Origin: Membranipora membranacea
Lineage: Eukaryota > Bryozoa > Gymnolaemata > Cheilostomatida > Membraniporidae
DNA: 60,000 nt
Assembly: GCA_914767715.1 (NCBI GenBank)
Contig: OU612069.1
Location: forward strand, 11,903,387-11,963,386
Direction: 5' to 3'
Within the stretch, counting starts at the first letter, position 1; each line of letters opens with the position of its first letter. Of this stretch, positions 23,348-50,186 are shown one piece after another. Both the position numbers and the translations under genes were made by a program. The notes below the pieces were generated by a model that was given only the letters and a program-made list of their open reading frames with translations, did not search any database and was not told where the DNA came from.

Positions 23348-23401
23348 CTTTCCAAATTTGATATAATAATAGTTTCGAGTCGGAGGGCGCCTGCTATGCA
23401 T
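23348..23401 (-). CDS. Array first exon (MHSRRPPTRNYYYIKFGK)
   Basis: ATG at 23401, 18 codons, strong donor GTAAGTGA in phase 0. It is the array exon nearest the shared acceptor at 22803. The peptide is Arg/Lys/Tyr-rich. Confidence 0.6.
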
Positions 23402-25475
23402 AGCTATATTATACTTCATGATGGTATGATAAACCTAGAGATTTCCAGAGATTTTGACGCAACGCAACAATGAAACTCAACCACACAATGTAATGCCGCA
23501 ACGCAATGATGACAGAGAAATATGTGACAGTGCTATATTTGGTAAATATGTCGTTATGGCGGCTTTAGATAGGCTATAACAATGTAGCACACTTTAAAAG
23601 TAAAGCTATGATGGTCAGCGCTTGCTGTGATTGTCCTCAGAACCACAGTGAGTGATAGCTTGCTAAGTTGCGGCAGCAATAAAGCGGAGAAGAGTGAATA
23701 GAAGAAGTGTTGTGAAGGATTTTTACAATGACGTTATTACAAATTTTGAGTATGATTGCCCCATAATTGAATTCAGAGATAATTTGTGTTTATCACAATG
23801 TCAGATGGGGGATCTGCATACTCCCTAGGGAGAAGTGTAGGGGCCAATTTATTAAAGAGGATACACATGAGGGCCGCAACTACGCGTTGGGGTGACTGCT
23901 ATTTTGGTTCTTAGTGTCAAGTAGAAAGATAGCCATCCGATTGGAGGAGCTAATTTGCTATAGACTAACTACCCTTGAATAGTAATTTTTGTAGTGTTGT
24001 ATGAAGTCACAGAGCAGAAAAAAAAGGGGTACTGACAGTAGCAAATTTCGTCACTCTCTCATTAATCTGACTAGCAAGCAAAAATAAAGTAGATATTTCA
24101 ACACCCCCAGACAGTTCTGCATTTATAAAACCTAGTGACCCACACTCAAATCTTCAACACTGACCAGTGAAGCATTGCTGACCAGACTTATCGCTAAAGA
24201 CGTAGACACTGGTCGCCCATCAATTTGACATCATGGCCTGTTGGCTGTCGGAAAGTAATTTACCAATACTGGCTATTCAGAGTGGGTAATTCCAAATCAA
24301 ACCAACTTTATTGGCACAAAATGTAGTGGGCTGATATATAATGTTGGTTCATTAAATCCAAACCTGGCCCTCACAAGAGCTAACATCTTCAACTCTCAAA
24401 TGTGAGTGCTTTCAATTGAGTATTTTATTGGATTGCATGTTTTACATATTGCAAACTCTTGATGACAACAAACACAGTTTCCGCTGCCCATTATACCTCT
24501 TCTATTGTGTATGACATGAGTCCGATGTAAGTGTAGCTAGTGGAATTGTATGACTGTTTTCCTGGTTGAACAGGCCGATAAAATAAACTTCTGACAGAGC
24601 GCTGAACAAATTTGATTCACTTGATCTCGATAATATACAGTATCACAGGGCGCTGATAAATTTGAATCATTTGATCTCGATTAAATGCGGTTTCATGGAC
24701 TCTGTTGAGTCAGGGACCCTGAGGACAGGATTCCACTCGGTACAGAAAGCTAAAACAATAACTCCCTAAATACAGCACTTTCCATCATGCATAACTTAAG
24801 TAATAAATTGCAAAAAGTTAAAGCTGAAAATTAACTTGATTTAGTAGTGTGCGTAATATTTCCATGGATGGATGGACACAGACAATAAGTCCCGTGACGC
24901 AAAATGATTCTGTTAATTATTTAAGCCCAGTGAAAGGATAACTAGGGCCTGTACATGTAGAGTGCCTAGAAAAGAGGACAGTGAAAGCTAAATGATAATG
25001 ATTTGCCTAGAAAATACTTGTACCAACCCGGACGGCTTTGCTCTGAAATATTCATGAGCACAGTTGTTATTTGATTTGTTAGCAGCAAATACAAAAATGA
25101 ACTTTGGTATTATGTCTGTCGCTTTACTTTCAACTTGTTTTCAAACTTTTGCTGTAGGCGTAAGGCATCTATCACATAGGAAAGATAAATTCACATATGT
25201 AAAGCTCCTTCTTTTATAATCAAAATCTATATGACTCAATATTTTCAATGGACCATTTTTTAGTGTCAAGCTTCGAATATGCAAAAAAATCAGCTATCCT
25301 ACCACTTGATATTGGGGAATCGCAGTGCATTCTCAATTGTGTTTTTACTTGTGTAGATATAACTGTCTTCCGACCCAAATCTAAGGAAAACTGCATGCTA
25401 GAAAGGCTCCAATTATGTATGGAACGGATAACATTTTGAGTTCAATTATTTAAGTTATTTATTTTTTAAGCCTAC

Positions 25476-25643
25476 CGATTGCCCCTGACGTCGCGCATTC
25501 TTATACTTATTTTCCATCTGCCTCCTCCTCTGCAGACCTTTCTTATCCGGACCCCTTCTAGTCACATTCCTAGTGTGGTTCATTCGGTAGAGTTTGGCTG
25601 TCCCACCCCGTCGGTGGGACCCTCCCGACCTCCTCATAGGCAT
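25476..25643 (-). CDS. Array first exon (MPMRRSGGSHRRGG...)
   Basis: ATG at 25643, 56 codons beginning MPMRRSGGSHRRGGTAKLYR and ending NARRQGQS at donor GTAGGC, phase 0. About a third of residues are Arg or Lys. Its presumed leader carries a minisatellite (25658-25785). Confidence 0.65.
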
Positions 25644-25657
25644 TTTGGCTACAGAAG

Positions 25658-25785
25658 TTCTATCGTTGAGTTTTATTTCCACTCACAATTCTGTCGTTCT
25701 ATTCCTGCTTACAACTCTATCGTTGAGTTTTATTCCCGCATACAACTCTGTCGAAATTTATTCCCGCTTACAACTCTGTCGAACC
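25658..25785 (-). repeat. Minisatellite in the presumed leader of exon 25476-25643
   Basis: Four units of 26-31 bp, each read on the minus strand as TTGTAAGCGGGAATAAA followed by a GACAGAG or GATAGAG segment. It lies directly upstream of the ATG at 25643. Several units carry GTAAGC, a donor-like sequence. Confidence 0.7.
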
Positions 25786-26071
25786 TTGTGACCATGTAAT
25801 GTGGTTGCTGTAGGTGTAAGTTAAATAGGTGTATGTGTAGTGTTAATAAGCTGCTGTAGGTTTCAATAATACTCTTTCTATAGTGTTTAAAAATGTTTAG
25901 TCCTTTGGTCATTTGCCAGCAAAACGGCTGCTTTCCTGAGGTCCAGCAATGCCCCTAACTTTTCTCGGACAGCGATTCTTCAATGCAGTTTGACTTCTAT
26001 CCGACAGCGTTTCTGTAGGCGGGACAACCAAACGTTTTCTCTGTTATTTCCTTTCCGCTGCCGAGCTCCCG

Positions 26072-26292
26072 TATAAAAGCAGCTTCCTGTCAGCGGGTGG
26101 TTGTTATATACTGGGAAGGATGATTATGCTTTGCTAAAGGCTTGACAATGTTTGAGTTTTCAAGTTTAAACAAATATGATGTGTGCCTTGCAGCGTCTCC
26201 AAAGATATGTGTGTGCTTAGAGGTGACCTGTTATTGGTGCGCGATGTTATCTGACGGTAGCGCCTCGTCAAATGTCATTATTACGAGTCCAG
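26072..26292 (+). CDS. Possible plus-strand promoter and first exon
   Basis: A TATAAAA box sits at about 26074 in a GC-richer segment. Downstream an ATG at 26148 opens 48 codons (MFEFSSLNKYDVCLAASPKI, then Cys-rich CVCLEVTCYWCAM) ending at a strong donor (CCAG/GTGAGT, phase 1, exon end 26292). No following plus-strand exon was found. It lies back to back with the minus first exon at 25476-25643, so the GC-rich segment could serve both strands. Confidence 0.3.
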
Positions 26293-28322
26293 GTGAGTTA
26301 ATATGCTGTCCATAGGGAATACCTTTGATGCCTTTTAAATCCAGATATGCGAGAGAAGAAACCTAGTAATTTAATATCCACACCCTTTGAACTGTTAAAA
26401 TCCTGTCTTATGTCATTTTCTTTCCATTTTATTCTCACTAATGAGCATTATGAGTAATATTTCCAGCCGCCGTGTAGAACGGTTTGATCTCTCACAGGTT
26501 TTTCACCAGGGTCGTTTGTTTGTTGAGGTCATTCTAAGTTATTCTAGCTGTATATGATCTGAGAGGAAACTGGAATTTATGCTTGTAATATAGATTTTGA
26601 GATGATGTTAGATGATGTAGATTTCTATTTACTCAATGTAAACTTATGCCCAGGTCGCTGTTGGTGTATAATAATTGTAATGAATAATGATTTTGTTTAC
26701 AATGTCGCTGGATATAATATACATTGCTCTGAAAGCAAATGGCAGAAATAAAATTCACAAACGCTAAAGCAAAATTTGCACAGCGCGAATAGCTTAGAAA
26801 CCAAATAAACGTATTCAAAGTCACACCATAACAGTAATGAAAAGCCTGAGTTCCTGGTCAGTGCCGAGGTGTATTTTACTAAAATCCGTGAGATTATTTG
26901 AGTAAATCGAGAACTCGACAATATTGATTACAAATATTAAACTATCTCAGTGATTCAAATCGAGGTAATTTCACTTATAATTCCACTTGTTCGTGGCGTG
27001 ATGATGGTTAACGAGGTCTTCGACATCTTTTCTACATCTTTTTATTATTATCTAACTAATAATTATTGGCATGGCATGATTTCAAGTCAGCTATTGTATC
27101 GGAGGCTGCACTTTCTAGGTGCAAAATTGGCTGAAAAGAATTTTAAAAGTTGGTTAGATAGCAATATTCAACTTTGGCCTCTGCAATATTGCACTGGCCA
27201 AGGTGCCATGTGCCACTTTTTCATATCAATGCATTTATACGGAACAATGCACCTATACAGATTTTTTATTTCAGACCATTAGTTTTGAATAAGTGAGACT
27301 CGTTGTTGGAAGGATTACAATTGAAGATGATGTTGCCTCAAAATTCAGTGTGTGATGCAACTTTCTGTAAAATTTTGAAAACATGTGGGGAATTATAAAC
27401 ACGATGGCAGGGATGTAACAAGTTATATTTCAATCTACAACTGCATGACGCAATGACGTCAAAGAAATGGAGTTTTCTCAATCCACCCATCGGCCTAAAT
27501 CACAGTAAGCTGACGACAGCGCTGACTTGACACAGATCTAATGTAGAAGAAGCCTTACAGGAAAACGACGGCATGTTCATCGTGTTAATCCAATATCAAG
27601 TCCAATAAATTTCTCATATGAGAGGCTCGCTGAGTATAAACCAATATTCATATACTTGATAATCAAGTGGGTACTAATTATAAATCATTACTGCTGAGAG
27701 CAGAGTACTCCTGCATAAACAATAACACTGAATAACGATATAGCACTCAAAACGATGACTGTATTTGAGCATGAACTCAGACTACGCTTGACTGTATAGA
27801 GCATGAGCACTCTGTCTAAGTTTGGGGGCTTTTGTGCAGGGAAGATGGAGAAAGAGTTTGGGGGGGGGAGTGCTCAGTATAGGCTATGACAAACTTGAAA
27901 GATGACGGTATTGACTAGGTTTGAATGTTTATAGCATAAACTCAGACTATAGGTTAGCGCCGTCACGTGGGGGGGGGGGGGGGGCTGAAGAGGGTCCGGG
28001 GGGCTCAGACTAGACTAGGGCACAGTCGCATTTGATTAAGTTTGGTGCATATGAAGTTGCTTACCCTCTACTGATCCTCAGCAGGAGAGCTTGATCAAAC
28101 TTCTGCAAACTCAAATTTTCTTTTCTCTTTTCTTGAATCACTTTAACATATACAACCAAGTGCTTCAACAATTCCCATTCATACCACGACTTCCTGTGCA
28201 CTAGAAAAGTGCGTGTAAATATCACTGTACTATCGCACGCGTTGTAACTGTCACTGATGTTATCAGAAATTCCAGAACCAGCCTCTAGTTCATAAATATT
28301 GTTTGGGGCTTGAAAGAATTAC
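26293..28322. other. No convincing gene
   Basis: Contains a plus-strand open frame at 26950-27282 (no ATG at its start; an internal MMVNEVFDIF) that I cannot assign, and G-runs near 27861 and 27969. No array-type exon was found on the minus strand. Confidence 0.4.
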
Positions 28323-28364
28323 TCTGTTAGCAAAGGCATAATGAGCTCTCAGCAAGGCATTCAT
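28323..28364 (-). CDS. Weak candidate array first exon (MNALLRAHYAFANR)
   Basis: ATG at 28364, 14 codons, donor GTAATT in phase 0, the same donor type used at 29042 and 48731. The peptide is not clearly basic, so this could be chance. Confidence 0.25.
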
Positions 28365-29041
28365 AGTTGTCATACCACAGCATCTAAGATTTGGTCAAAT
28401 TCAGGTTCTACTAGCAACACATGTGAGGGCCGCTGTACATGATCAATGTAGTCTTATTCTGCAAACATTTTAGTCATCATTTGAATATGTGATTGTCTAA
28501 CACTGTAGTTGACAACGCAGACTTAAATTTGTTTGGATTTTGGAAATCATATATGTGACAAAAATTTCAGTCTGGAAATATCTGTACCATAGGCTTAATG
28601 ATATTATCAAGTGTATAGTATCTACTGAAAAAGACTACAGTTGGGTAAATGATTTGTTGAATTTCAAGTTTGAAAGCCTAGGAGTTTTGCTCTCTTTTTC
28701 GATGGGGAGACAATATTGAATATCCAACATTGCAAAATGTAGAGTTGGAATATTCAAATATTCCAACTTTTCTTTGTATAACTCGCCTCAACAAAAAACT
28801 GGAACAGAGGGGAGGTGTGAAATCCAGACAGAAACCTCCCACAGAACAACAATAGATAATCACTCCTGGAAACTGTATGCTCGGATAAGGTATTCTTATC
28901 TAAACAGAAGGATGGCAGGGTGTCAATGAAAAAAAATGAGATGACTCGCAGTTCTGCTTTTTCTGGTCAAGCCGAATCCGCTTGTCTGGTGCAAATGGAA
29001 ATCAACTGAATCAACGAATCAGATCGGATGTTATGAATTAC

Positions 29042-29314
29042 CTCCTCATCACCAGAACCGCCAAAGTCCTCGTCTTCCTCCTCTTCTCCGAACATATCGT
29101 CTTCATCGTCACCGCCTCCTCCCATAGCGAGGCGGCCCTCCCGATTCTTACGTCTCTTATTATTCCTGCGATTCCTCCGTATCACTTTAACCTGCCTCCG
29201 TTTGGCGGTGAAGCTTCGTTCCCCCATGCCTCCGCTGTAGGTTTTCTTCTGTCCGGCAGTTGAGCTTTTGGCTTTTACGGAACAACTGACAGATCCACCA
29301 CCTCTGCGACCCAT
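29042..29314 (-). CDS. Array first exon (MGRRGGGSVSCS..., basic then acidic)
   Basis: ATG at 29314, 91 codons, donor GTAATT, phase 0. The first two thirds are basic (MGRRGGGS; KRRQVKVIRRNRRNNKRRKN); the rest is a long acidic run (DDEDDMFGEEEEDEDFGGSG). One exon thus holds both the basic and acidic character found elsewhere in separate exons. It is GC-richer than its surroundings. Confidence 0.7.
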
Positions 29315-30256
29315 ACTATGTACAAACTCATCCGATACCCCAGGTCGATACCTGGGCTAATTAATCAGATTATTTTTGGGGAATGTCACAGTAGATTGTA
29401 AGTAAAGGTTATAGAGTCCCATATGTACTTCGCAGGTAATTAATTTCTCAACTTTTCGACGCTCTAGACATAGCTCAAATATTTAGTACTCGAGCCATGG
29501 CTATATCTTTTTTACGAACTATTTGTTGTAAGAGAATTTAAATAGACGTCCGATTATCCTGGGTGCTGCCAGGAAACTGGTCACGTTGCATAACTTAGAC
29601 AAGACGATAATCACTAGGTAGAGGTAGAAGAGGGTTATTGGTGGTCACCAATCTAGCCTACGATCTGACAACAGGTTGGTTTAATGCCCATATAAAATGA
29701 TTCCCAATATCATCTCAACACAGCAGAGGTGCAGAGGCTTAATATTGTCTCACTGTTGTGTAGGATCATTATAGAAGAGCATTGATTTTTTGGTGGTTTC
29801 CAGCTGTGCACAAAAATGTCACCATGCCTCTTTCCCATTTACACATACACCTCTGGCATGTGATGACATTTGCTAACAATTATCGGAAACCAGCATGTTA
29901 ATGTAAACATTTATATCAGGGCTTCGGTGATAATGCGCTATTATCAATATACATATTTTTTGGTGCCACACAATCAAATATCATATAAATTTTCTTTTTG
30001 TGCTAAGATTGGTTTTTTTTAAAATGCCCGATTTGCGTCAGACAATGTGATACTGTTGCACATCATTTTGTTTAGTAAAAACAGACTTTTATGAACGGCA
30101 TCATAAGAAACTCTACACTAAGCCATCCATATGCCATTTTAGTGCTTCAAAGACTGGGTGACAATTTGCTTGTAAAGCCCAAGAAAAGAAAATTTTCATC
30201 CTAGTTTGGGGAAATGCAGCCATCAAGGGCTTGAGATATAAATGTTAGGTATTTAC

Positions 30257-30346
30257 CAATCTCCGAAGATGTCTGCGTACATTTCTTTTAGATAGTATTC
30301 CGCTGTTGCGCGTGCGATGCAAAACAGAATAACCCGCTCTGCTCAT
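30257..30346 (-). CDS. Array first exon (MSRAGYSVLHRTRN...)
   Basis: ATG at 30346, 30 codons (start MSRAGYSVLHRTRNSG, end KRNVRRHLRRL), donor GTAAAT in phase 0. Arg-rich with no acidic residue. Confidence 0.6.
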
Positions 30347-30975
30347 TTTAACAACTAAGATAGCTAACTTTTCCTTTACTTCATATAGCCATAATATCGA
30401 AAAGAAAAGCAGCCTTAGTTCCCATACCAAAGGGGGGAGTTAGAAGCGCAACCCCTACTACCTGTGATAATCTAAGGCTCTGACAGCGAGGGCAGTATTC
30501 TAAGGGTGGGTGTTTTATTACACATCGTACTTCCCATTAATGGCTATTCTCGCTAATAACGTGCATCTTTGATCTAAGATAGTGCAAAGCCTTCCTGGAA
30601 CAAGTCCTCATTACATGATGTATGTTGTTAATTTCCTTTTAGCAGAACAGAAATAGAATTGAGTTGACAACTCTAAATATCGATGTACGAGATCAATGAA
30701 ATAAGTTTTCTTCAAATGAAAACATTGTATTTTGGACAATATTTTGATAAAGGCATCTCATGGCAATTTTCAGTCTGATTCTTCCAATAAACCCGTAAAA
30801 TCTCCCTCTCGCGTACCAAAACATACCCTAGCTACACATAGCTTTGACATTTTACTCTCTGCACAATGTGGTACAAGCAGCTACAAGTTTCTGGATAGTA
30901 ATCATATCCAATCAGTGGTTACCCCATGTGACCTTTTCAACATTGCATTCTTTATATGACATCATCTGAACTTAC

Positions 30976-31107
30976 ATGTCTATGCTGTTGATTGCTATTA
31001 ACCCTTGACTGTACTTTTTGGTGACCTCTTGACCTTGGTTGGGTCCTCGGTCTACCAGCCGCCCCGTGTGCTGCCGTATACTTTCCTCCTGATACTCGGC
31101 GAGTCAT
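30976..31107 (-). CDS. Array first exon (MTRRVSGGKYTAAH...)
   Basis: ATG at 31107, 44 codons starting MTRRVSGGKYTAAHGAAGRP, no acidic residues, ending SNQQHRH exactly at a strong donor GTAAGTTC, phase 0. GC content is raised over the exon. A competing open frame on the same strand is Ser/Glu-rich but lacks an ATG and a fitting donor. Confidence 0.65.
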
Positions 31108-32054
31108 CCTCTCCTGACAAAGTCTCTTCCGAGCCGTTTGAAATGTTTCCCTCTCCGGACACCAAGGTGTCGGTGGTTTTAGATATCAGCTATCTGCTTT
31201 TCTGCTATTCTGAATTGTGGGGAATCCGTCCGTATTTGTATTTGATGGCTTGGATCTAGTTATGATAGCTTGTGCTTCTATAGAGCACTAACGCTACTGT
31301 AAAAGTCTACCAGTTCTTTTAACCAAAATTACAGTATTACATTGATAACTTAATCCACAGACATTTGATCTCTTAAAACCGCAGGTCGAATAAGTTGTGG
31401 CTCACTCACAATTAATGTAGACTACCTAATTGAGACGAAGTCCTGTCGCTTAGTCACTGGCAAATTATGATTACTTCATCTAGTCTACTCCGTAAGATCT
31501 TCTTGATAAGACTTTCAATAATTTATAAAATCCGTATTGACAGGAGAAATCCTTGCGGCGGTTAGTGTGACCAAGAATGCTCTGCAAAGTATAGCGTCGG
31601 TTTTACGGGGACTCCCTCGATGGCAATTAAATCGCTTGAATTATAATGATTAAGAGTTTATTTTAAAAGCACAGTTAATTGGTCCCGAGTACAATGTTTA
31701 AAGATACCAGCGGTATTGAGTAGTATCATGCTATGTTGTAAGATGAGTGTCCTCGTTTCAAATCTCCAGTCAGAGTCAGTTGGTTGCTTGATATCAAGAT
31801 TCCACAACCTTGAGAAATTTTAAAGACGACTCCGAATGTTTTAATGCAAAAGTGAAGATTCCTAACTACAAAACTGAACCGCTTAACCACTGTAGTCTGT
31901 GTCTTCTAGATAGAGAATGTTGACAATCTAAGTGAACTCTTGGACATCAAGATACAACAGGTCACATATTTTTTGCAAGAAAGCAAGAAGCCGTGATCAC
32001 TTTGGTGATTTAATGAGATCACTGGGCTGGCCATGTCACCCCCAACCCGCTTAC

Positions 32055-32102
32055 TAGTTTTCTCACGGTTTATGGCTAGTTTCCCATCATCAGAGCTTAC
32101 AC
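32055..32102 (-). CDS. Possible cassette exon inside the array
   Basis: 48 nt, acceptor GATATTTGCTTAG, donor GTAAGC, open as phase 1 to 1, encoding VSSDDGKLAINREKT. Phase and the start G-V match the 18841-18948 exon, but it lies among phase-0 first exons, so only transcripts entering from a phase 1 exon (such as 52255-52414) could use it. Confidence 0.3.
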
Positions 32103-32294
32103 CTAAGCAAATATCACACTTAATCAAAAACCAACTGATAATTAGTGATAATTAGGTGAAGGTGTTAACAAGGCTGTTGACTGCTGAGAGCTTTTTTCTT
32201 CGATTGTAAAATCGTTATGAGCCCCTGATCGGCAGAATAATTATTTGTTTTCCTGTAGTATTCAATATTCATCATGGGCTTAGCCATGCCTTAC

Positions 32295-32324
32295 CAAGTA
32301 ACCAAACCTAACACCAGTACTCAT
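32295..32324 (-). CDS. Weak candidate array first exon (MSTGVRFGYL)
   Basis: ATG at 32324, 10 codons, donor GTAAGGC in phase 0. It overlaps a local tandem duplication of about 70 bp (32273-32420). Only one basic residue. Confidence 0.25.
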
Positions 32325-33929: not shown

Positions 33930-33966
33930 GTAGGAGATAAGAGAAGTGGGATTTGGTTCAACTTAC

Positions 33967-34050
33967 GGTTTTATGACTTGACTTCTTATGTCCATGTTTG
34001 GCCGTCTTGTGTCTCGTTTTATGTGTATTCTTGTGCCGATGTCGGCTCAT
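33967..34050 (-). CDS. Array first exon (MSRHRHKNTHKTRHK..., His/Lys-rich)
   Basis: ATG at 34050, 28 codons, start MSRHRHKNTHKTRHKTAKHG, end HKKSSHKT, strong donor GTAAGTTG in phase 0. More than half of the residues are His, Lys or Arg; none are acidic. This is one of the clearest array members although too short to stand out as an ORF. Confidence 0.7.
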
Positions 34051-34941
34051 TCCCTTCTACAAGCAACAGAAATAACAAGTGATCGGAATTTGAGGTGAAA
34101 TAAGATAACAACTGACTCATTTTTCGGTAATCCAGTGAAATTTTGGTCTTTGTTTGTAAACCAGTTATTTCAGTTTGAGCACTCCGATTTAGTCTTCAGT
34201 TTAAACATATAAAAGCAAATTCAAAGTAAATAGCTACACTTTCAAGTATTTTGCACATTATGTAGCAGAAAGCAGAGGAAATTACTGCTGACAAAACAAT
34301 CTACTCATCAAGAGTAACTATAGTTCTGAAAACAATCAAGAGAAGACAATCAACCTAGTAACATTAAAAAAAATTAACATTATCAGAAGGCACTCATTTA
34401 TGAACATTCAATTTCACACCTACGCATAAACAATAAAGTTAGAAAAACTAATAAAGGAAGAAGGCTATTCAGTCAGACATTGCACACATCCAAAGCCTGG
34501 AAAGTCTGAAAAGTCAAAACAAAGCCACAAAGACAAGCATAACTGAAATTATAACAGCGCTTCATACGCAACACACAGAGCTATACACTTACTAACGTTA
34601 AGAAAATAGTAAGAAACGCTATTTTCTCAGGCCGTCAAAGATCGACTCGATATAGTGACATAACAAACGAAACGAACAATTTTAATGACCTATACAGTAT
34701 AGTTGCAACAGTATATATAGTGATGATAATTTTCAAGATTCAAAGGCAAAATGCCAAGAACTTCACTGCCTTAGCCATAGGCATCAGCCACCATTCCCAA
34801 ATTTTTTTGTATGTAGAAAATAGACAAACAGACATATCTGAGTTAAACTGTAGTGCGTAAGAATTTGATACAAGGTACCAATTGAAAGCCGAATTGTAAT
34901 ATCATCAAGAAATGGTCTATATTGTATATAAATAACGGTCA

Positions 34942-35036
34942 CACAATGCAACTCCATCCTAGCTCTCCCAGAATGATCAGGAAATGCTCTAATCGAGTTG
35001 ATCATTTTGGAAATTTCAGAAAACTGCATTGTGGGA
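34942..35036. mobile_element. MITE family A copy
   Basis: Ends CACAATGCAACTCC and ACTGCATTGTGGGA are inverted, with GATCATT motifs inverted further inside. It sits about 50 bp from the array exon 35086-35118. Confidence 0.6.
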
Positions 35037-35085
35037 TACTATTTATAGTACCCCTTAGTTTTACTATAAATCAGTAAAAGCTCAC

Positions 35086-36927: not shown

Positions 36928-36996
36928 CTTCTTATGCCCTTTATTATGAGAGCTATGGCGTCTCACCATGCGCATCCTTCGCGCATGACCCGGCAT
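36928..36996 (-). CDS. Array first exon (MPGHARRMRMVRRH...)
   Basis: ATG at 36996, 23 codons, start MPGHARRMRMVRRHSSHNKG, end HKK, strong donor GTAAGATC in phase 0. Very Arg/His-rich, no acidic residues. Confidence 0.65.
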
Positions 36997-38022: not shown

Positions 38023-38061
38023 ATCAAACACTGCTCCAGTTCTCCTTTGTTTGGAAGACAT
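38023..38061 (-). CDS. Array first exon (MSSKQRRTGAVFD)
   Basis: ATG at 38061, 13 codons, strong donor GTAAGTGC in phase 0. It is only about 315 bp from the next member at 38376-38438, the closest pair in the array. Confidence 0.55.
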
Positions 38062-38375: not shown

Positions 38376-38438
38376 CCTTTTCAAACGATCGCGATTCTTA
38401 CTTGCTGACGTCCAGTGTCGAAGTCCATGTGATGGCAT
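38376..38438 (-). CDS. Array first exon (MPSHGLRHWTSASK...)
   Basis: ATG at 38438, 21 codons, start MPSHGLRHWTSASKNRDR, end LKR, donor GTAAGTAAG in phase 0 with a second GTAAGT overlapping it. Confidence 0.65.
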
Positions 38439-39614: not shown

Positions 39615-39662
39615 CTTTTTAACTTGATTATCATCCTCGTCCCCTTTAGATTTGGGTCGCAT
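39615..39662 (-). CDS. Array first exon (MRPKSKGDEDDNQVKK)
   Basis: ATG at 39662, 16 codons, donor GTGGGTG in phase 0. Mixed charge: basic ends around an acidic DEDD core. Confidence 0.5.
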
Positions 39663-40239
39663 GGTGATATCAAGATTACGGGCATCAACAGAACTATTTT
39701 CTCAGATTTTGTCCAGATAACGTAACTGTAACTGCTTGCAGTGTAAAATATCAACGTGCCGTGTGGCTTCAGTAATATACCAAAATGCTGTGTAGCTTTC
39801 AATTTGGTAAAGTAATGACTAGTATGGGATAATCAACAGATGCAATACTCCCCTTCAATCAATAGAAAACTTCCAAAAATACGAAATAAAGAACTAGTAA
39901 AGCCGCTAAGTTGATACTATGTCCAAAATGTCTAATTGACCCAAATCACCATAAAACAACCGTCAGTGTTATAGCCCTATGGTCTTTTCCCAACTATCTA
40001 GCAATATAAAAGTGGGTAAACATATTTAGATGAGCCAGACACCAAAAAATAGCAGTGAGCGTTGAAGTATTGATAACTAAATTATACACCAAATTGTAAA
40101 CGCAAACAACGGACAGAGTCTACTCCTACTCCAAATACTACTATCATCAAGTGCATTCAAAAGGAAAATTCTAGAGATGGTAAACGAAAGCATCATTTTT
40201 GCCAGGAACACAACAGAAGTAATAATTAATTCATCTCAC

Positions 40240-40430
40240 CTTGTTATATCTTCTTCCAACCATTTTTGGACAGTGAGTTGATTTTCAATAATATAACCTA
40301 ATGATTCGAGATTCATCTCATGAAGGGTATCCCAAGTTGTGATCAAATCAATATGTCCAAAACATCGAAGCTTTTGGCATTGACCATTGCTGTGAGAAAT
40401 AGATATATGATATAACCTGCAAAAACTCAT
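40240..40430 (-). CDS. Orphan exon, acidic helical peptide
   Basis: A very good acceptor (TATATCTATTTCTCACAG) at 40390 and donor GTGAGATG at 40239 bound a 150-nt open exon (40240-40389, phase 2 to 2) encoding 49 residues including FGHIDLITTWDTLHEMNLES and LTVQKWLEED. The frame also continues upstream to an ATG at 40430 (MSFCRLYHISISH). Composition is protein-like and unlike the array. No partner exon of matching phase was found nearby, so the gene it belongs to is unknown. Confidence 0.4.
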
Positions 40431-41965
40431 TCATTCCTAAAATAAAAGGCTAGCCAAAAAACCGCTGCTGCTGAGCCTCATTTAGCGAAAAATCATTGTC
40501 AAACCATCACTAATATTGACCTTTTTATAGAGTGCCTGAGGCTAATAATAGGGTGTTTATACATTAATGATTCCTAAGCCCAGATAATCTTATTAAATTC
40601 TCAGCTTGTTAGATGGGGGTGTCTGGGAGAAGTGTCTAGGCTGCGGAATTTTGCGCATCCTAAGATATCATCTGCAGGAAGCTGTGCAGGGATTAAGATA
40701 AATTGGATGTTCTGTTCTATTAAAAATAATACACTGATTAAAAATAGGAATTCATATGAATATTCGGATGGCATAGAGAAGAGTGATTCACAATATAAGA
40801 GAGGCTAGCTTAAGTGTTCAAACACTGGCTGTTGCATACCATGATCATTCACATCCCAGATTCTGATCTATCGTTGATCAGAATGCAGTCTATCTAGGTG
40901 CCACAACCAGCAACCCAAATTTAAACCCCAATACTTTTGGCTTCTGCTAGAAAAAGTTTAGGTTTTTGAGTACCGTGTTTGCACAACACAGCCTTACTTT
41001 TTGTTAACATGTGAAAATGTCGAACAAGCTGATGGGGTATTATTACCAGAATACTTTTACATCAGTAAGATGATCGTTAATGATCTTAACAATCAAACCA
41101 AAACCTCATCAATACGTCAGCTAGGCAGGAGATACTGGAAAGCCGATAGCCAACCACATGCACAGATGTCCGAAATGCCACTGCTGCGACATCAAATTAC
41201 CTTGTACTAATCATCAAAGGTATAAGGATTACCAAAATTCAAAGCATAGTCACAATAATGTCTTTTTTTGTGCATTATAAAATGCCCATTTTTAGGAAAA
41301 TGAGAATCACTAACATACTGATGAACTTTGGGCTTTTGAAAGATCTTAACAACAAGGTCAACTTATAGAGTCAGAAAACCTCAACGGGCCTCCCTTCCTA
41401 TTAATATTATAGTAAAAGCTGAATTCCCATAACTCATCACAACCAAAGAATCCTAAGCGAAGCTGAGAGTTTGATAAACAAGGACAGACAACTTCAAGTT
41501 AGCAACCCAATGATTCATACACGTTTTAAGTTTTCAAATCTAGAACAGAACACAATTCCTGGCTTGGTGTGAAAATCCAATCGTGGCAGGCTCCATTAAT
41601 CATAAGATGCCAAAACAGAGCAGTGAACCTTAGTAATATTCCAATGTTCTTTTACAACACTTCAGATTGAACTATGTCGAAATCCAGTCAGTTTCTCCAA
41701 ATCAAGTCTGTATACTATTCTATATGGACAACAAACAGATAAAAAAATCTACCACAAAGATAGCATAACTCCGTGATCTACAGAGTAGTTTGCTTACAGA
41801 TGCAAAACAGAACTAATCCATTCGGTCAAACAGGAACTAAACTACTCTTCTAGGTGTTCTCTATAAGGTGTCAAACAGGAGAGTTACTATCTACCACCAC
41901 ACCACCACACTGAGTCGTGTCTGTGCGTATACCAAGATTCAGACCTTCCATACAAGTAGGGCTAC

Positions 41966-42025
41966 CTGCGGCTGGCCGTTCATACCCCCAAACATTCCTC
42001 CTCTGCTCCTCTGGTGATGAGACAT
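41966..42025 (-). CDS. Array first exon (MSHHQRSRGGMFGGMNGQPQ)
   Basis: ATG at 42025, 20 codons, donor GTAGCC in phase 0. The Arg/Gly/His composition matches the array. A longer overlapping frame (41871-42065) has no ATG-donor arrangement that fits. Confidence 0.55.
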
Positions 42026-42907
42026 GGCTATTCCAGGAGTTATCCTCTTCTGCTTTCAGTGACAAGGCTAAGAACGTCCCGTCTGCAGTCGAGATTGTTA
42101 ATAAAGATCCGGATTATGCCTTCTTAGGTTCGCAGCGGGTTGGATTCTCTCATATCAGAATTAGTTTATGTGGTCAATGTTTTTAAATATTCCTCTTTTG
42201 TGTAGTTAAAACGTTTTTTTCCGTGGATCCAAAACTCTCTGTCTCGGTCTCAGTCATTAGAAAGCACTTTGTCACAGCTTTTCCATAGAACTCCTAGAGG
42301 CAATTTTCCACAGGTTGAGAATCTTTGTGTCGAAGCTCATGAACAAACACGATATTTCAGAGAGTGTAGAAAATGAATAACTCCAACACTAAAATTTACT
42401 CATGATCAACTAAGACAGACAACAGATATAAGCTAACTGGTTCAGCTAAGACCTCGAAAGCTTCGATAATAATTATAAGCTCTTAAATCATTTCACAAAT
42501 CCAGATTCCTAGCCATATTTACATACAAATTCATATCCTAGTACTGATTTTCATTTACTCATCAAAGGAAATAAATAATCATGATATTTTGATACAATTA
42601 CAATAAGGATAACATTCGTATTAATCTATGATATTAATTATGGGAGATTGAGTTCATAGCATCAAACATTTACTAGAACAAGGCCAGAATGTGATTCAGC
42701 TCAAATTCTAGGTCCATTCATGCTAGGATTAATGAGTACAGTAATATTGTCTGCTAATTCCTAAGGTTTTGAACAAAGGGTCAATATTTAAAGCAGGAGA
42801 ATGAATTCCACGCTGAAACGAAGTTCGATAGGACACCATGTGATCGGAACCAAACACCAATACCCACTTCTACTTCTGTACAAATTCGCTGCTTCTATAT
42901 TAGAAGA

Positions 42908-43010
42908 AGTTTGGTTCATTTGCCTACATTCCTGTTGCTCCCTTCCACTGGTCATGCGATGTGACTAGTGGAAGGGAGCAACAGGAAAGCAGGCAAATGG
43001 ATTAAACTTG
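42908..43010. mobile_element. MITE family C copy (near-perfect hairpin)
   Basis: Two arms of about 50 bp are almost exact reverse complements (AAGTTTGGTTCATTTGCCTA at the left; AGCAGGCAAATGG, AAACTT at the right). Other, more diverged copies at 18636-18745 and 22219-22328. Confidence 0.75.
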
Positions 43011-43378
43011 ATCTACTTCTATATGCTTAAAACCTATAACACTTGTATTGCTACATCAAACTGTGCTGTAGCCAAGCCCCTTCAAATTATATATACATAT
43101 TTGTAACAAATTTCACTGAAATGGGCAGCTTAGGACTTCGCTGGTCGACAACTAAAATAGGATGCATTTAGCACTGAGTACTTGAAGCATTGAAAACCCG
43201 CTATATTTACTCAAAACAATGGTCAGAAAAACACAAGAGCTAATGGTGAAGTGCAGTGTAACAAAAATTTATCTAATTTGACCATGCCCGTCAGACTCTT
43301 TCAGCCAGACATGTAAAAGAAGAATCAAGGTACAGAATATCTTTTTTTGCTATGCTGATCTAAAATCCAAAAAGACCT

Positions 43379-43476
43379 CCCACAATGCATCAATAACCTG
43401 CTAATCCTGAGAAGACCAGGTCAAGCTCATATATGTTATCAATGAGCCAAGAAGTGCAGAAAATTGCATTGTGGGA
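43379..43476. mobile_element. MITE family A copy
   Basis: Ends CCCACAATGCAT and ATTGCATTGTGGGA are inverted, about 98 bp in all. It lies downstream (left) of array exon 43607-43660. Confidence 0.6.
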
Positions 43477-43606
43477 CATGTAAAACCCTGCAATACTGGA
43501 TACAGACTAGTAACTGCGCAAGGATGAATTAGCCTTTTACCAAACAGAACACACAGAAGAGACTCGAGCCAAACAATGAACTCAAAGGATCAGATCTTAA
43601 ACCTAC

Positions 43607-43660
43607 CATCATAAGATATCTTCTTCTTCTGTTGTGTCTGTTATTGCGAGGACCCGGCAT
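43607..43660 (-). CDS. Array first exon (MPGPRNNRHNRRRRYLMM)
   Basis: ATG at 43660, 18 codons, donor GTAGGT in phase 0. Six Arg in 18 residues. Confidence 0.65.
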
Positions 43661-45301
43661 TGTCGAAGACTTGCTGTAATAACTTTTAACTCGACCAACT
43701 TTGGTTGTTAGACCGAAGGGACCTCAGCAGTGTGTAGCGTATCACCTGAATATTGATATTTAAATATTCACAAAACACTGACAGCCCTTCGTAGGCAGCC
43801 CTTTCGATTTAGTTTTCGTTTTGAAGCTCTAGAATCAATGTAGAGTGCTCTGCCCTGCGCGGATATGTCACTTCGGTCAGTAGCTACAAATAGCTGCGAG
43901 ATACGCTTACGGAGTGACCTGATGAACCCAGAGATACTAAAAACTCATTGAGGAAGCTATGTGAATACTCAGGTCAAGCATTTAACGCCTCGTTACAAGT
44001 TGTTCAGCCTCTCCGATAGAGCGATACTGTCTTGCGTCACCCTAACTCTCTCTAGCGAGCAGTCAATCATCAATAAAGCTCAATGTTAGAGTAGCTATCA
44101 AATTCACCATCAGTCCTTTGTCTGACCAATTGATTCTTGGGTGAGGAAAAGAACCCAACAAAGATTCAGACTATCAGATTTTTAAACAAACAAATAACTA
44201 TTGCCTGTAGCGAAATTAGCAATAAAAACAAAGCCGCTAGGGCTGTGACAGCAACGTCTTTCGTAAGTAGACACCTCCATAATTATATCCTACGCATAAT
44301 GAAATGTTGCATGGTACAAATTTTCTACCGTAAATTCCTCTGACACTTCTTCGTCTAGAGAAATATAAATTTTTTTAAAAATGGCATTCCTCTACAAAAC
44401 ACAGAATTTTGCACAACTCTAGATTGTTTCAGCTCTAGGTATCACAAAAGCAATCGCATCAAGCTTATCTCCGTTCCAATACAAGTGACTAATATAACAA
44501 TTCTTAATCTCCTCCACTTTTAATCAGGGAATCAACAGGAAAAAGTATATTTTATCAATATTAATCAAATAGGATGTTCACCAAGGGGCAAATTAACCAG
44601 ATTTGTGGCAACACATTTGTCTGATGTCTGAGTTTGGACTAGCGCCTATATCTCAATTCTTAAAAGATGGGCTTAAGGTCAGACTGCTTTTCTCTCATCC
44701 TCTGCATTTTCCACTGTTAGGTTTTATAGATTTACACTAATTTAACCTTGGATGTCCAGTTGAAACAATAAACGTGCTCGCAGGGTGATGTGTGTTTACC
44801 AAAGCTGATACATCTTGACTAGATAGTGTGAGTTTGTGACAAACTCTCTGGAAAGACAGGTATAATATGCAATGAGCGATAAACAATCAATTTGGCACCA
44901 TACAACTTCAGGAAGAACCAATCTAGAAAACCATCTGATACACTCTGTATGTATAATGGATTGTAGAATATCTTAATGTCCGGAATATCTGTATCTAAGC
45001 AAGGAGTTTGGGATTTGTCTCAAATGCTGTGATCTAAGGAAACCAAACGCTAAAAACACAAACTAGGAGTTATCAACTCTCAGATAATCATTAAACAGGC
45101 CTCAATATCTGCAAAATGCTGGATTAATTCAGCGAACTTGATGTAGGTTTGGAGAACTGGATAGAAACCTGATGCTTTACAATAATATGTTATTATTTGT
45201 CAATATGAATAAATTATGATTTATGATGTGAATGAATTGATGATATTAATAATAACATTACTTAAACTTATTTAAATAATTGTGTAAATAGAAACACAAA
45301 C

Positions 45302-45550
45302 CTGCTGCATGTGTCTGCCTCTGACAGCATGGCGATTACTTAATCCAGATCTACCTCTCGTCCCACCACTACCACTCACTCCTGTCCTCCCCCTTGTACC
45401 TGTCCCGCCGCTACGCCCTTTGTTACCCCCTGCTCCACCTTTACCCGCTCCACCTTTTCTCCCTCCTCCACTTCCACCTCCTGATCTCATTTTACACCTG
45501 CCTGCTCTGCTCGAAGATGAGCGATTGTTCGAGCCCGACGAATGCTTCAT
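45302..45550 (-). CDS. Array first exon (MKHSSGSNNRSS..., Gly/Arg repeats)
   Basis: ATG at 45550, 83 codons: Ser/Arg start (MKHSSGSNNRSSSSRAGR), long Gly-Lys/Arg repeats (GGAGKGGAGGNKGRSGGTG), end AVRGRHMQQ at donor GTTTGTG, phase 0. It resembles RGG-type RNA-binding or nucleic-acid-associated tails in composition only. Clearly GC-richer than the flanks. Confidence 0.65.
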
Positions 45551-46111
45551 TATGATGCCCTTTTTTCTCTCTGCTGCCGAGTTTTAAGCCTAATCAAATT
45601 TGACGGAGATGTTAAAGTACCAAGTCTGGGTCAGAGCGCTGACGCAATTTTTGTACTATTTTAGTACAACGGAAGTTTTATGGTATGTCCGGGCCTAAAT
45701 GCCCATAATAACGGCTGACTCTGCTAAACCTTGTCTCTAGAATGACAGCGATGGGGGTTAACATTATTCTTGGCTAATGGTTATTAAAGATTAACATTAT
45801 GGTTTATGTGATGACCTCTTTTTGAGTGTTAATTCAATGTCATAATGAGGTTTATTGCTAATTAATCTTAGTCTTACATAATGTTACAACATGGTATTTA
45901 TCATTAAAAAGTCTATACTCGTTAGTGCTGATGAAAAGTGCTGATACCAAAGTCCTCAGAGACATTGAAAAGCACCATGCTATAAATATATATTAATACA
46001 TAGATAGAATATACAATATATATAAAAATATATTATATGATATGGTATAAGATATTTGCAATTGCTCTTATTCAAAACTTGAGGCGGCTCCTCATTCATA
46101 ATGAAATTTAC

Positions 46112-46141
46112 ACTCCGATAAATTATCAAGCTACGACCCAT
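46112..46141 (-). CDS. Weak candidate array first exon (MGRSLIIYRS)
   Basis: ATG at 46141, 10 codons, donor GTAAAT in phase 0, the donor type used at 30257. Too short for certainty. Confidence 0.25.
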
Positions 46142-46282
46142 CTCTCAGATATACCAATTACACACAACGATATTACTTTATAAATGAACATCTTACAATA
46201 ACCCACCTAGTGTGGACATTACTGTACAATCATTACAAATAAGCTTGGGGCAGAGTCAGTTTTGTGAATTAGGAAGTATGGT

Positions 46283-46411
46283 CACCCAGGGGTGCTGAGT
46301 GCTAGGACAATCAATTTAGAAAGCTCCCCCTGGTGAGACTTGAACTCATGACTCCTGTGGCACTAATCCCCTGGCAGTGAATAGCCGCAACACTATCCAC
46401 AGGGGGTTAGA
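46283..46411 (-). mobile_element. tRNA-derived SINE, copy 1
   Basis: Same layout as 48282-48432, diverged (box B region GAGTTCAAGTCTCACC). Both copies are on the minus strand in the first-exon array. Confidence 0.6.
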
Positions 46412-47717
46412 ACGAATAAATGTGTAAAATTTGATATTATTTTTAATGTTACAGGTATTTGTTTTATCATCCATCTGAAATCAAATAAAACCGTAAGAAA
46501 ACAAATAAAACTGGGTGCCTGATCACAGTGTTACCTGCTCAAACCCACCACAGAGCTCAAACTAATAATTGAGATGCACCTACTATCCATTAAGAGATGA
46601 AGAACAAGCCGGCACACAGCTAAAAATGAGAAGTCATGCCAACCACCAATAGAGTTAAATATTAATGCCCAGATAATTGCTCAACAGTGAAAATTCACTT
46701 TTCAGGTGAAAGAACCCAAAAGAAAAACAACACGAACCTGCTCAAAAAATAACTTCATAAAAGTTAAATCAAACGATGAAAATATCTTGTAATGACAAAT
46801 TTGCAACTGATTGGAGACTTAGTTATGTAATCAGTTTGCAGACAATTATAACACAGAGTAAGGATATGTCCTTACTCTGGGTGCCATAATTGAGAAGTCA
46901 ACTCGTTGCTGTAATCTCAAAGTGAAATAAACGGAGTGAGACAACTCCAAAGTATACCTTGCTTTATTTGTAACAACTATCAGCAGAGAGTTTGGTACTC
47001 CCTGAGCAAACATACTATATATAAATATATATATACACTTTACATAATATATAATATGCATGGATTTTTGTTGGTTTACTTCTTGATTATCATATACTAT
47101 AGATAATGATATGACATGGTATGTTAGCCATGCAATAATTAATGAAGGTGGAATATGTTATTATTGACAACTTGGTTGCCACAACTGCATTGCATTTCCA
47201 AACCGGTAACTAACCTGTGTTGTGATAGTATATTTTTGATTCAACTTCCAATCAGTGAAGACAAATTATTACCAATAGATAGGGAAACGATCACCCTTTT
47301 ACAAGGACACCAGTTCAAAACAGCAAATACTTCTAATGGAAGCCACCCTTTATCTGCTTGCCCGTTTTGATAACATTACCAAACCACTTGAAAAAATCAG
47401 ATCACATTATATAAAGTGGCCAACAGCTAGCGATGATAAACCATTGCATTTTAGGGCATGCCTTGCCTTGTCTTTGAGAAGGGGCTGGCCAAAGAAATTT
47501 GAACCAACCTGAGATCAGGTCTCAGGAACCCATAGAACTCAAACAATAGGTCATGCACTTGTATACACTTGAAAAGATATGACACCTAACACGCCTAGTC
47601 TGCAACCATCGCGACCTTCCAATGACACAGTAAGGCGTTAAAAAGGGGATGAATATCTGCGGTGAATTCAATGAAGAACAGGTGACAAAGATGCCTCCCA
47701 ATAAATACTTGTCTTAC

Positions 47718-47783
47718 ATTTGAAGCTCCTTGGCCACCTTGCCGTCCATGATGATTAGAACCTCCACCTTTGCGAGATCTCAT
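47718..47783 (-). CDS. Array first exon (MRSRKGGGSNHHGRQ...)
   Basis: ATG at 47783, 22 codons, start MRSRKGGGSNHHGRQGGQG, end ASN at donor GTAAGAC, phase 0. The frame is open further upstream but the ATG gives the array-type peptide. Confidence 0.6.
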
Positions 47784-48281
47784 ATTTAGATATCTATCCT
47801 CACTAACACATAAAAAGAATCGCGGCCTTATACCTGGCAACTTTACTGCAAGACTGAATGAAGTTCAAGACAATTATTAGATTGCGCTTAAACTCAAAAA
47901 CATTTTGCAAAATATGAATACAAATTAACTACAGGTGGATTCCGTTCGGTTACGGCTAGTGAAATTATAAATAATTAGGTCAACGTAGATTAGATTTTGG
48001 TAATTTGCCCAGGCTAGATAACAAAATTAACTGTTATACGTAACTAAAAAAAGTATTTGAACTAGAAATTTTTACACCTAACAGTGGTGTGATTAGCAGT
48101 TAGTGAACTAGACAATTTGTAATTGTGTTATAGGTCGCAAGTTCAAGCAACGTTTATAGGCGTCGTTAAAGTTGTTGTGTTGATCAGAACAAGCCAATGC
48201 ACTTAATTTTTCTCAGGCAACCTTGACGGACATTGCGGTCAAGAAACAAACAAATACATCATTTCAGAACTATCATCCCAA

Positions 48282-48432
48282 GGTGCAGGAGAGGTATACA
48301 CCCGAGGGTGCTAGGGGCTGGAACAATCAACCTTAAAAGCTCCCCAGTGGGACTCGAACCCACAACTCCTGGGGCACTTATCGCCTGGCCGTGAATAGCA
48401 AGCGCGCAATCCATCTCACCATCCCTACTCTC
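48282..48432 (-). mobile_element. tRNA-derived SINE, copy 2
   Basis: Read on the minus strand it has a tRNA-like head (ATGGTGAGATGGATTGCGCG, then box B GGTTCGAGTCC at about 48350-48360) and a non-tRNA body (GAGCTTTTAAGGTTGATTG). A related copy is at 46283-46411. Confidence 0.65.
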
Positions 48433-48730
48433 CATTGAACAAATGTTGCTGATGAGCATTAGCAAATCATCTTAGACATTTTAGCAGATCTCAAAAAACA
48501 TGTTGTTGCGCTTATAAAATGGTCGAGACCACTGATTGTGTCATACAATTGTTGAATATCTGACCCCAATCCTCTGTTGGTTGAATATCAATATACACAT
48601 AATACATATGATACATATTATATTACTATAATTATATAATACCATCTACAGCAGCATGAGAGACTATTGCAATGGGTAGTGAGGCTCGACATCACTAAAA
48701 CAATACACAGGGTTAATTTATTTTAATTAC

Positions 48731-48808
48731 CGAAGTCCTCGATGTTCTACGCCGAGCCTTGCTGCCTCTTTTCTTCACTTTAATGGCAGCGGATTTTCCG
48801 GCTGGCAT
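48731..48808 (-). CDS. Array first exon (MPAGKSAAIKVKKRG...)
   Basis: ATG at 48808 in good context (AAAATGC), 26 codons, start MPAGKSAAIKVKKRGSKARR, end RTSRTS, donor GTAATT in phase 0. It resembles protamine or histone-tail peptides in composition. Confidence 0.65.
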
Positions 48809-49772
48809 TTTCACTGGCTGGTGATTTTTCCAGACAAAACAAGCAGTATGTCTACTAACTAACTAACTTCTACTATACAGTGTTTGGGTTTGTATTCGGA
48901 AATACTTTTGCCCACTCAATCACAATTTCCCATAACTGACATGATCAAAGATCGTTCTCGCAGTTGTAGCCCTCTTGAGTACTGTGCAGATAATTGTGTC
49001 ACTTCATCATTTATTCATTGCCTATCACTTTTAAAGGTATTGGCACTACACGAAATTTTGCAGTAATCAGCAAATGGATGACATATGGCAACACTTGCAT
49101 ATAAGTGGCTATCCATGGCATCACAGGAATTTAACAAAATGTAATTATATGTTATATTATTGTTTATTTGTATGTGCCGTTATTGTAATGCCCTTATGAA
49201 ATATTATCTTGAATCAATTAGACTCATTAAAAGTGTTATCACGCTTTAAATTTTCAAAAGTTATCTCGGTCTTGCCTTATTAATTTACGTTTCTAGATAC
49301 TTTGATTATAAAAATATCAATATTGTAAATTTTCTTTAATCAAATAAACATATCGAATGGTTGTAAGACACACCAAACGCTTTATTAATACTAATTTTGG
49401 TCAGCACGGCTGACAGCTATCATAATCACTGTAGGGTAGATAGTGCTATAAAACAGGTCAATTTTGGATCGCAACAACTACGCACTCATATACTTCATCA
49501 CAGTAGGCACAATTCCATACCAAACATGTCAATATCTCTCAGAACTCAACGAAGCTAGAATAAGCTTGATCTTTCTGAATGACAACCAATACGTTGAGAA
49601 TCCGAAATTATCAGTTCAATGGAGTATGCTATTAATCATCCGAAAGAAGACAACTACTAAAAATAGTTACATCTACGAAATCTAACGAAGGCATGGAGTA
49701 TTTTCAGTTAGAAAGGGTGATGCTTTACTAATGCAAATTATCACTATCCCATCGCTCGAAATTATCATTCAC

Positions 49773-49870
49773 TTGGTTTTTCATTTAGACAAAATTCTTC
49801 CCAAATTGCTCACTCAGAATGTATGTAGTTCCATCAATGAGTGAGCGTGTCCAACACACTGACTGAGTGA
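49773..49870. repeat. Dispersed repeat, also at about 59645-59735
   Basis: Shared core: CAGAAT.TAT.TAGTTCCATCA, then ATG.GTGAGCG. No coding frame seen. Confidence 0.5.
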
Positions 49871-50069
49871 GCGATCTAATTGAAACTTGGGTGTTTCTAA
49901 TTGAAACCATGCCTTGTCTACCACACCGACATTAATCACGCATCTAGGATCTGATCTGATCCGAGCAGAGCATCTTCTCATACTGACAAGAAGCAGCGAA
50001 TTCGGTTTGGTTCTAGTCAACAAAAATGCGAGAAAACCGGCAAAGCAATTTGATGTACTAAATCCCTAC

Positions 50070-50186
50070 CATAACCATACGCTTAGTATGAGAAGGTCGT
50101 TTTCTTGCTGAGCTCTTAGCGCTTCTAGCAGCAGCACCAGGTCTCTTCACACCTCCTGTAGCTGACTTTTTTTGTCCTGACGGCAT
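50070..50186 (-). CDS. Array first exon (MPSGQKKSATGGVK...)
   Basis: ATG at 50186 with G at -3, 39 codons, start MPSGQKKSATGGVKRPGAAA, end SHTKRMVM at donor GTAGGG, phase 0. It is the array member furthest from the shared acceptor (about 27 kb of intron). Confidence 0.65.

Follow-up and report, generated by a model that had tools for sequence, protein, structure and literature searches.

Arrays of alternative first exons are already known. In plectin (PLEC), about a dozen alternative first exons code for short N-termini on a common body and decide targeting of the protein (PMC8468861). UGT1 and the protocadherins have tandem variable first exons and shared downstream exons (PMC1885805), and the CaV beta subunits (CACNB) combine large 5' introns with several alternative N-terminal exons (PMC3972191, PMC2365960). 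Here we describe a 60,000-nucleotide stretch of the genome of the bryozoan Membranipora membranacea (contig OU612069.1, positions 11,903,387 to 11,963,386; hereafter the window). Its minus strand carries a TIR–TMEM268 gene, coding for a predicted two-span membrane protein with a cytosolic TIR domain, whose N-terminus is probably picked by alternative first exons. The gene seems to have around ten or more alternative starts, most of which would supply different short basic tails and some of which would omit the TIR domain. What is new is the host gene, the chemically similar tails, for which no common origin could be detected, and the entries whose use would remove a domain.

Plectin is a closer analogy than the protocadherins and UGT1A, to which an earlier note on this DNA, made from the letters alone, had likened the array. 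As judged from sequence and conservation, several ATG-bearing first exons here share one downstream acceptor and one phase, as in plectin; the protein is unrelated, however, its peptides are nearly all basic, and some entries would remove a whole domain. Protocadherin and UGT1A first exons code for large paralogous domains, whereas the bryozoan first exons are tails of 11–91 amino acids (aa) that are not detectably duplicates of one another, and the likeness to those clusters is weak.

We name exons by the window coordinate at which they start. On the minus strand, the gene runs from a basic first-exon array (52.4–23.3 kb) through a shared basic exon (22803-22716), an acidic exon (18948-18841) and three TIR exons to seven exons of the TMEM268/DUF4481 body (4166 to 329); the eighth and last TMEM268 exon lies just beyond the window, at window positions −113 to −355. 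From 22803 through the acidic and TIR exons to 329, acceptors and donors form a phase-consistent chain. This chain, whose layout agrees with annotated proteins of Bugula neritina and Watersipora subatra, supports the single transcription unit that the earlier note had proposed. The assembled protein matched Pfam PF14800 (DUF4481, TMEM268) at 25.2 bits as a full chain and at 26.4 bits without the TIR domain, where the curated cut-off is 25 bits. Two adjacent hydrophobic stretches (chain residues 358-391 and 402-431, by hydropathy window only) are predicted transmembrane segments, a feature shared with the human TMEM268 layout (PMC6748091). The bryozoan gene differs from TMEM268 by its TIR domain, its acidic and basic N-terminal exons and its multiple first exons. 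A 1049-base JGI contig (P0002) matched the 132 residues between the end of body exon c4 and c7 with 100% identity, and because these residues cover 1.8 kb of genome we concluded that P0002 is a spliced transcript. Against the last exon, P0002 differed by a single residue, with Ala where the genome has Thr, which may be an allelic difference.

The likeness to CACNB consists of the alternative N-terminal exons and large 5' introns; the common exon is not the GSAD exon, and the gene is a different one. CaV beta had been suggested by the phase pattern and was dropped once exon 4166 and the rest gave DUF4481. A text-pattern search of both strands of the window for a common exon beginning GSAD found no match.

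Exon 22803-22716 (phase 0 in, 1 out) scored 11.7, more than the other two minus-strand internal-exon candidates that passed the cut-offs. A plus-strand candidate overlying it scored slightly more (12.8), but we preferred the minus-strand reading because the relatives and a nearby paralogue, copy B, carry the minus-strand version. The relatives came from a profile search, which found proteins of two other cheilostome bryozoans, Bugula neritina (P0004, 660 aa; P0007, 389 aa) and Watersipora subatra (P0005, 698 aa), and the more distant P0006; the named relatives by themselves would mark the window as almost certainly bryozoan. Both P0004 and P0005 combine a basic N-terminus with an acidic [N/D]PF segment, a TIR domain and TMEM268, and P0007 covers the N-terminal half. 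At the N-terminus, P0005 has a 36996-type, a 34056-type and a 22803-type exon in that order; P0007 adds a 29314-type exon, and its gene model has apparent intron read-through. Six segments from P0005 and P0007 matched the window at 38-54 bits, against maxima of 20-24 bits in 40 window shuffles, and the first segment of P0004 matched 34056 at 26.6 bits. The Watersipora genome annotation is described as based mainly on transcript alignments (PMC12902671), and P0005 may stem from a different annotation.

Pfam gave no match to a TIR domain in the window chain, and the TIR_2 cut-off of 28 bits was not reached in the relatives (P0004 26.7, P0001 19.6, P0007 18.1); TIR_2 is listed as a precomputed family for P0004. 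Structural alignment of a predicted model indicates a TIR fold in the Watersipora relative. The mean predicted local distance difference test score of that model was 44.9 overall, and the regions outside the TIR, of low confidence, were not interpreted. The TIR adaptors MyD88, MAL and TRAM share this fold; the bryozoan TIR is instead fused to a TMEM268 membrane body. At the WCxxE-like position, where Glu is linked to NADase activity in SARM1, the window has Ile, P0001, P0004, P0005 and P0007 have Glu, and P0006 has Cys. NPF or DPF is retained by the acidic exon of all five sequences with coverage there (window, P0004, P0005, P0006, P0007). P[S/T]APP is retained in four of the five that span the linker, the exception being P0004; copy B carries both motifs. 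NPF and DPF resemble motifs for EH-domain or AP-2 proteins, and P[S/T]APP resembles the TSG101 motif.

All 17 ATGs with basic or polar peptides that the earlier note had placed in the array were found on the minus strand, although 11 of them (7 M-P, 4 M-S), and not eight, begin M-P or M-S. We scanned 23-53 kb under strict settings (purine at −3, ATG, at least 10 residues, net charge at least 0.2, donor score at least 1, phase 0, non-overlapping). Results showed 11 matches on the minus strand and none on the plus strand, and dinucleotide shuffles (n = 300) gave a mean of 0.67 and a maximum of 4. The opposite-strand null had been named beforehand as a check, and both comparisons bear out the claim that such exons are hard to get by chance. 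One match (29106) was an out-of-frame overlap within the 29314 exon; the remaining ten were 50186, 45550, 43660, 38438, 36996, 35118, 34050, 31107, 25643 and 23419/23401. Phase 1 was likewise enriched (7 matches, shuffle mean 0.54), with several matches sharing ATGs with phase-0 matches, and phase 2 was not clearly so (2 against 0.58; 39 of 300 shuffles attained 2). The predicted exons are listed below; pS and pN are synonymous and amino-acid change per site.

52255..52414, minus strand: first exon absent from the earlier note, beginning MGPRRTSGGVNGMGRRNFC, phase-1 donor; copy B exon 68% identical (E 4e-22), pS 0.94, pN 0.17, donor phase kept
51483..51727, minus strand: second exon of the 52414 N-terminus, phase 1 in and 0 out; copy B homologue 68% identical (E 3e-32), ratio of amino-acid to synonymous change (dN/dS) about 0.14, splice sites kept
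50070..50186, minus strand: first exon, phase 0; passes the strict scan, homologue not found
48731..48808, minus strand: candidate first exon with a weak donor; fails the strict scan
47718..47783, minus strand: candidate first exon; fails the strict scan
45302..45550, minus strand: candidate first exon rich in G, S and R, donor at 45302 or 45380; passes the strict scan, low complexity with only collagen-like repeat matches, to be read with caution
43607..43660, minus strand: first exon coding for MPGPRNNRHNRRRRYLMM, phase 0; passes the strict scan; copy B homologue MPNLRNMRYCRRRRNLTM 61% identical, E only 0.013 but order matches; pS 0.85, pN 0.24 (18 codons), phase-0 donor kept
41966..42025, minus strand: candidate first exon; fails the strict scan
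39615..39662, minus strand: candidate first exon with a strong donor (6.4); absent from the strict scan
38376..38438, minus strand: first exon, phase 0; passes the strict scan
38023..38061, minus strand: candidate first exon of 13 aa; fails the strict scan
36928..36996, minus strand: first exon coding for MPGHARRMRMVRRHSSHNKGHKK, phase 0; 70% identical to the N-terminus of Watersipora P0005 (41 bits, shuffle maximum 21), also matched in Bugula P0007
35086..35118, minus strand: first exon of 11 aa, phase 0; passes the strict scan
33967..34056, minus strand: internal exon beginning KGMSRHRHKNTHKT (34050 of the earlier note), phase 0 in and out, acceptor 4.4; KGM start common to P0005, P0007 and copy B
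30976..31107, minus strand: first exon, phase 0; passes the strict scan
30257..30346, minus strand: candidate first exon with a weak donor (30257 or 30281); fails the strict scan
29042..29314, minus strand: first exon, basic then acidic, phase 0; Bugula P0007 homologue (45.8 bits, shuffle maximum 23.5)
25476..25643, minus strand: first exon of 56 aa, phase 0; passes the strict scan
23348..23419, minus strand: first exon with ATG at 23419 or 23401, donor 7.8; passes the strict scan
22716..22803, minus strand: common basic exon, phase 0 in and 1 out; homologues in P0004, P0005, P0007 and copy B
18841..18948, minus strand: acidic exon with NPF motif, phase 1 in and out; P0005 homologue (E 4e-12), copy B homologue
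12903..13071, minus strand: TIR exon 1, phase 1 to 2
11198..11375, minus strand: TIR exon 2, phase 2 to 0
10248..10386, minus strand: TIR exon 3, phase 0 to 1
7488..7545, minus strand: first exon 3' of the TIR exons, phase 1, suiting acceptor 4166 (TIR-less form); 75% identical in copy B and 84% in P2, partial in P1, donor phase 1 in copy B and P2
4815..4908, minus strand: second candidate first exon 3' of the TIR exons, phase 1, donor 8.4; homologue not found
4026..4166, minus strand: common exon c1, linker with PSAPP, phase 1 in and out
3359..3534, minus strand: common exon c2
2703..2819, minus strand: common exon c3
2086..2262, minus strand: common exon c4, which with the end of c3 holds the two predicted transmembrane segments
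1443..1589, minus strand: common exon c5, 100% spliced match to P0002
817..930, minus strand: common exon c6, matched by P0002
329..430, minus strand: common exon c7, matched by P0002
54977..59528, minus strand: tandem paralogue P1, 3' part (c2 to c8), TIR exons not detected

The array thus starts further upstream than the earlier note had it, at the two-exon start 52414 plus 51727, and a second entry lies 3' of the TIR exons (7545, 4908). Four of the 17 exons have coding homologues (43660, 36996, 29314, and 34050 as an internal exon), seven more pass the strict scan (50186, 45550, 38438, 35118, 31107, 25643, 23401), and six weaker ones (48808, 47783, 42025, 39662, 38061, 30346) fail it and have no homologue that we found. 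Excluding 34050, a purine occupied position −3 in 15 of 16 exons (background 0.53), upstream ATGs within 60 nucleotides (nt) numbered 6 where 17.6 were expected, and proline was the second residue in 7 of 16 (background 5%). None of these features was a selection criterion, and they fit real translation starts. In the strong set of ten exons, three of which have homologues, the purine was present in 10/10 and there were 2 upstream ATGs against 11.0 expected. Pairwise similarity among the 16 first-exon regions was not above that of random regions, and the sole high-similarity pair (38438/38061) was a comparison of overlapping stretches.

We asked whether these exons are first or internal. Apart from 34050, a phase-0 acceptor scoring above −3 was present in only three of 16 exons (42025, 31107 and 23401; best 1.0), and an in-frame stop lay 6-93 nt upstream in all 16. 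With acceptors this poor and stops in frame, most of the 16 must begin at their own ATG if they are phase-0 coding exons. The copy B counterpart of 43660 retains the ATG, the upstream in-frame stop and the phase-0 donor. The ATG of 34050, in contrast, sits inside the exon starting at 34056, which has a good acceptor in the main gene as well as in copy B. These data are best read as alternative first exons that feed a common body. We infer the splice junctions, and a separate promoter for each array exon, from this pattern. The earlier claim that every donor points to 22803 held in part: 22803 is a shared basic exon that is entered in phase 0 and has homologues in relatives, but not all donors point there.

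Copy B is convergent, on the plus strand at window positions -20246 to -3069, 3 kb outside the window, and has TIR exons and the entire body. Its homologues of 52414, 51727, 43660, 34056 (E 7e-6, first part only), 22803, the acidic exon and 7545 (E 3e-6) stand in the same order, with splice phases that agree with the main gene wherever checked. In addition to the values listed for 52414 and 43660, we obtained pS 0.64 and pN 0.18 for 51727, pS 0.91 and pN 0.07 for 34056 (19 codons), pS 0.82 and pN 0.14 for 22803, and pS 0.44 and pN 0.12 for 7545 (19 codons). Per-site synonymous change between the copies far exceeds amino-acid change; some of the exons are very short, but as a group they show that selection acts on the protein. 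Two tandem copies lie on the minus strand, P1 (59528-54977) and P2 (77487-71840, window coordinates); TIR, 22803-type and acidic exons were not found for either in a search up to 140 kb.

Exon 7545 follows the last TIR exon, precedes exon 4166 and has the phase 1 that acceptor 4166 requires, and the same is true of 4908; the scan of this interval gave only these two gene-strand matches, both in phase 1. P2 likewise has a 7545-type exon upstream of it, and P1 has part of one, so this exon type probably starts TIR-less proteins.

Other readings of the array have to be weighed, and the likelihoods we attach to them overlap with that of the best explanation and do not sum to one. The array could be serial, with one or two promoters (52414, 36996), the basic exons being internal cassettes that lengthen one tail and most of the others not being first exons. 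In the Watersipora and Bugula gene models a 36996-type exon and a 34056-type exon do occur together in a single protein, which makes part of the array serial, and 34056 has the acceptor that an internal cassette needs. The poor acceptors and upstream stops of the other 16 exons, the start structure retained by 43660 in copy B, and the Kozak purine and upstream-ATG depletion, which mark the ATGs as starts, leave this account improbable. Very improbable, and already disfavoured, is the idea that each exon is a small independent gene of its own, encoding a protamine-like basic peptide and placed upstream of the TIR gene by accident. They are short basic open reading frames with stops, as that would predict, but annotated proteins of other bryozoans have some of the peptides fused to the TIR protein, and the phase-0 donor of 43660 is conserved.

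A small real set (52414/51727, 43660, 36996/34056, 29314, 7545), joined by chance or decayed open reading frames gathered by composition, is unlikely. Homologues exist for these exons only, and six exons of the earlier note fail the strict scan. Against this, 11 matches where 0.67 were expected imply that most of the seven unmatched ones should be real, and the start context is held by the strong set of ten. Several further observations count against the best explanation. A long array is not general: in the 7.4-kb array interval of copy B, the same scan gave three gene-strand matches, each homologous to an exon of the window, plus a single match on the opposite strand. Chance matches do occur: for the sequence upstream of P1 and P2, the scan yielded three on the gene strand, namely the P2 7545-type exon and two of phase 2 that have no counterpart, as well as one opposite-strand match. 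Between the TIR exons and 4166 there were also two weaker opposite-strand matches, which leaves the strong donor and the phase as the case for 4908. The best donor phase was 0 in 13 of 16 exons and 1 in three, a count that leans on the earlier note having chosen exons by phase. The weak set of six had purines at −3 in 5/6 and 4 upstream ATGs against 6.6 expected. Homologues were not found for 14 candidates (13 in the array and 4908), though peptides as short as 11-26 aa are hardly able to reach significance; no convincing promoter motif common to the first exons was found; and P0001 begins at an intron end and is thus uninformative on the array.

If alternative first exons are used as we propose, the upstream entries (52414 with 51727, and the phase-0 array, in some cases by way of internal exon 34056) would splice into the shared basic exon 22803 and yield a basic tail, an acidic NPF-bearing segment, the TIR and TMEM268. 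The downstream entries (7545, perhaps 4908) would splice in phase 1 directly to 4166, giving a TIR-less TMEM268 form. The tail would be cytosolic, because the TIR must act in the cytosol, and may be an interchangeable targeting or interaction module for acidic lipids, cytoskeleton or nucleic acid. Mammalian TMEM268 binds ITGB4 and CD11b and slows their degradation, that of CD11b by the endosome-lysosome route (PMC6748091; PMC11169502). The bryozoan protein may similarly be an adaptor at the membrane that takes part in the trafficking of integrins or other surface receptors, positioned by its tail, with start choice setting which tail is present and switching TIR recruitment; this is the most likely mechanism, with about an even chance of being right. 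A single-gene diversity system, with at least about 15 independently used starts, many basic tails, a TIR-less switch and isoforms that differ among cell types or zooids of a colony, seems rather unlikely.

Exons c2-c7 of copy B have 85-94% protein identity to the main gene, and c1, c8 and the 5' exons are far more diverged (about 45-75%); this sharp contrast could reflect gene conversion of the body. P1 matched PF14800 at 28.9 bits; three cysteines of its exon c2 have been lost, and its evolution is faster than that of the main gene (tree branch 1.41, main gene about 0). Collagen-like Gly-X-Y coding stretches lie on both strands at window coordinates of about -59500 to -22900, beside the TIR–TMEM268 cluster. 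Inside the array, an inverted repeat (42901-43015) consists of a pair of 54-nt arms that are 85% complementary and lie 7 nt apart. The intron that follows exon 22803 holds three diverged direct copies of a 128-nt unit (20484-21610), spaced about 430-530 nt apart. A TCCCACAATGCA-like sequence, seen by eye only, recurs in many introns (e.g. near 35000, 43500, 59330, 1240 and 60), perhaps as the ends of a short inverted-repeat mobile element. Rfam and tRNA scans of the window gave no match. A Pfam search of stop-masked 15-kb frames was empty because the exons are short (minus 1-15 kb, three frames; minus 14-29 kb, one; minus 45-60 kb, three; plus 1-15 kb, one). A PDB search of one such frame, and a protein search with the 52414+51727+22803 chain padded with X, returned nothing.

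TMEM268 is little studied: 34 papers in the literature searched mention it, and one mentions DUF4481. In mouse it supports CD11b stability and anti-infectious immunity (PMC11169502). We found no paper on TMEM268 and a TIR domain together in the open literature searched, subscription papers not being covered, and little there on bryozoan TIR proteins. A TIR-bearing TMEM268 would tie this family directly to TIR signalling, and the paralogue 3 kb away provides an evolutionary control. The gene would be an example of a single body that can bear many basic N-termini, interchangeable and apparently unrelated, and in which the choice of start decides whether a signalling domain is present.

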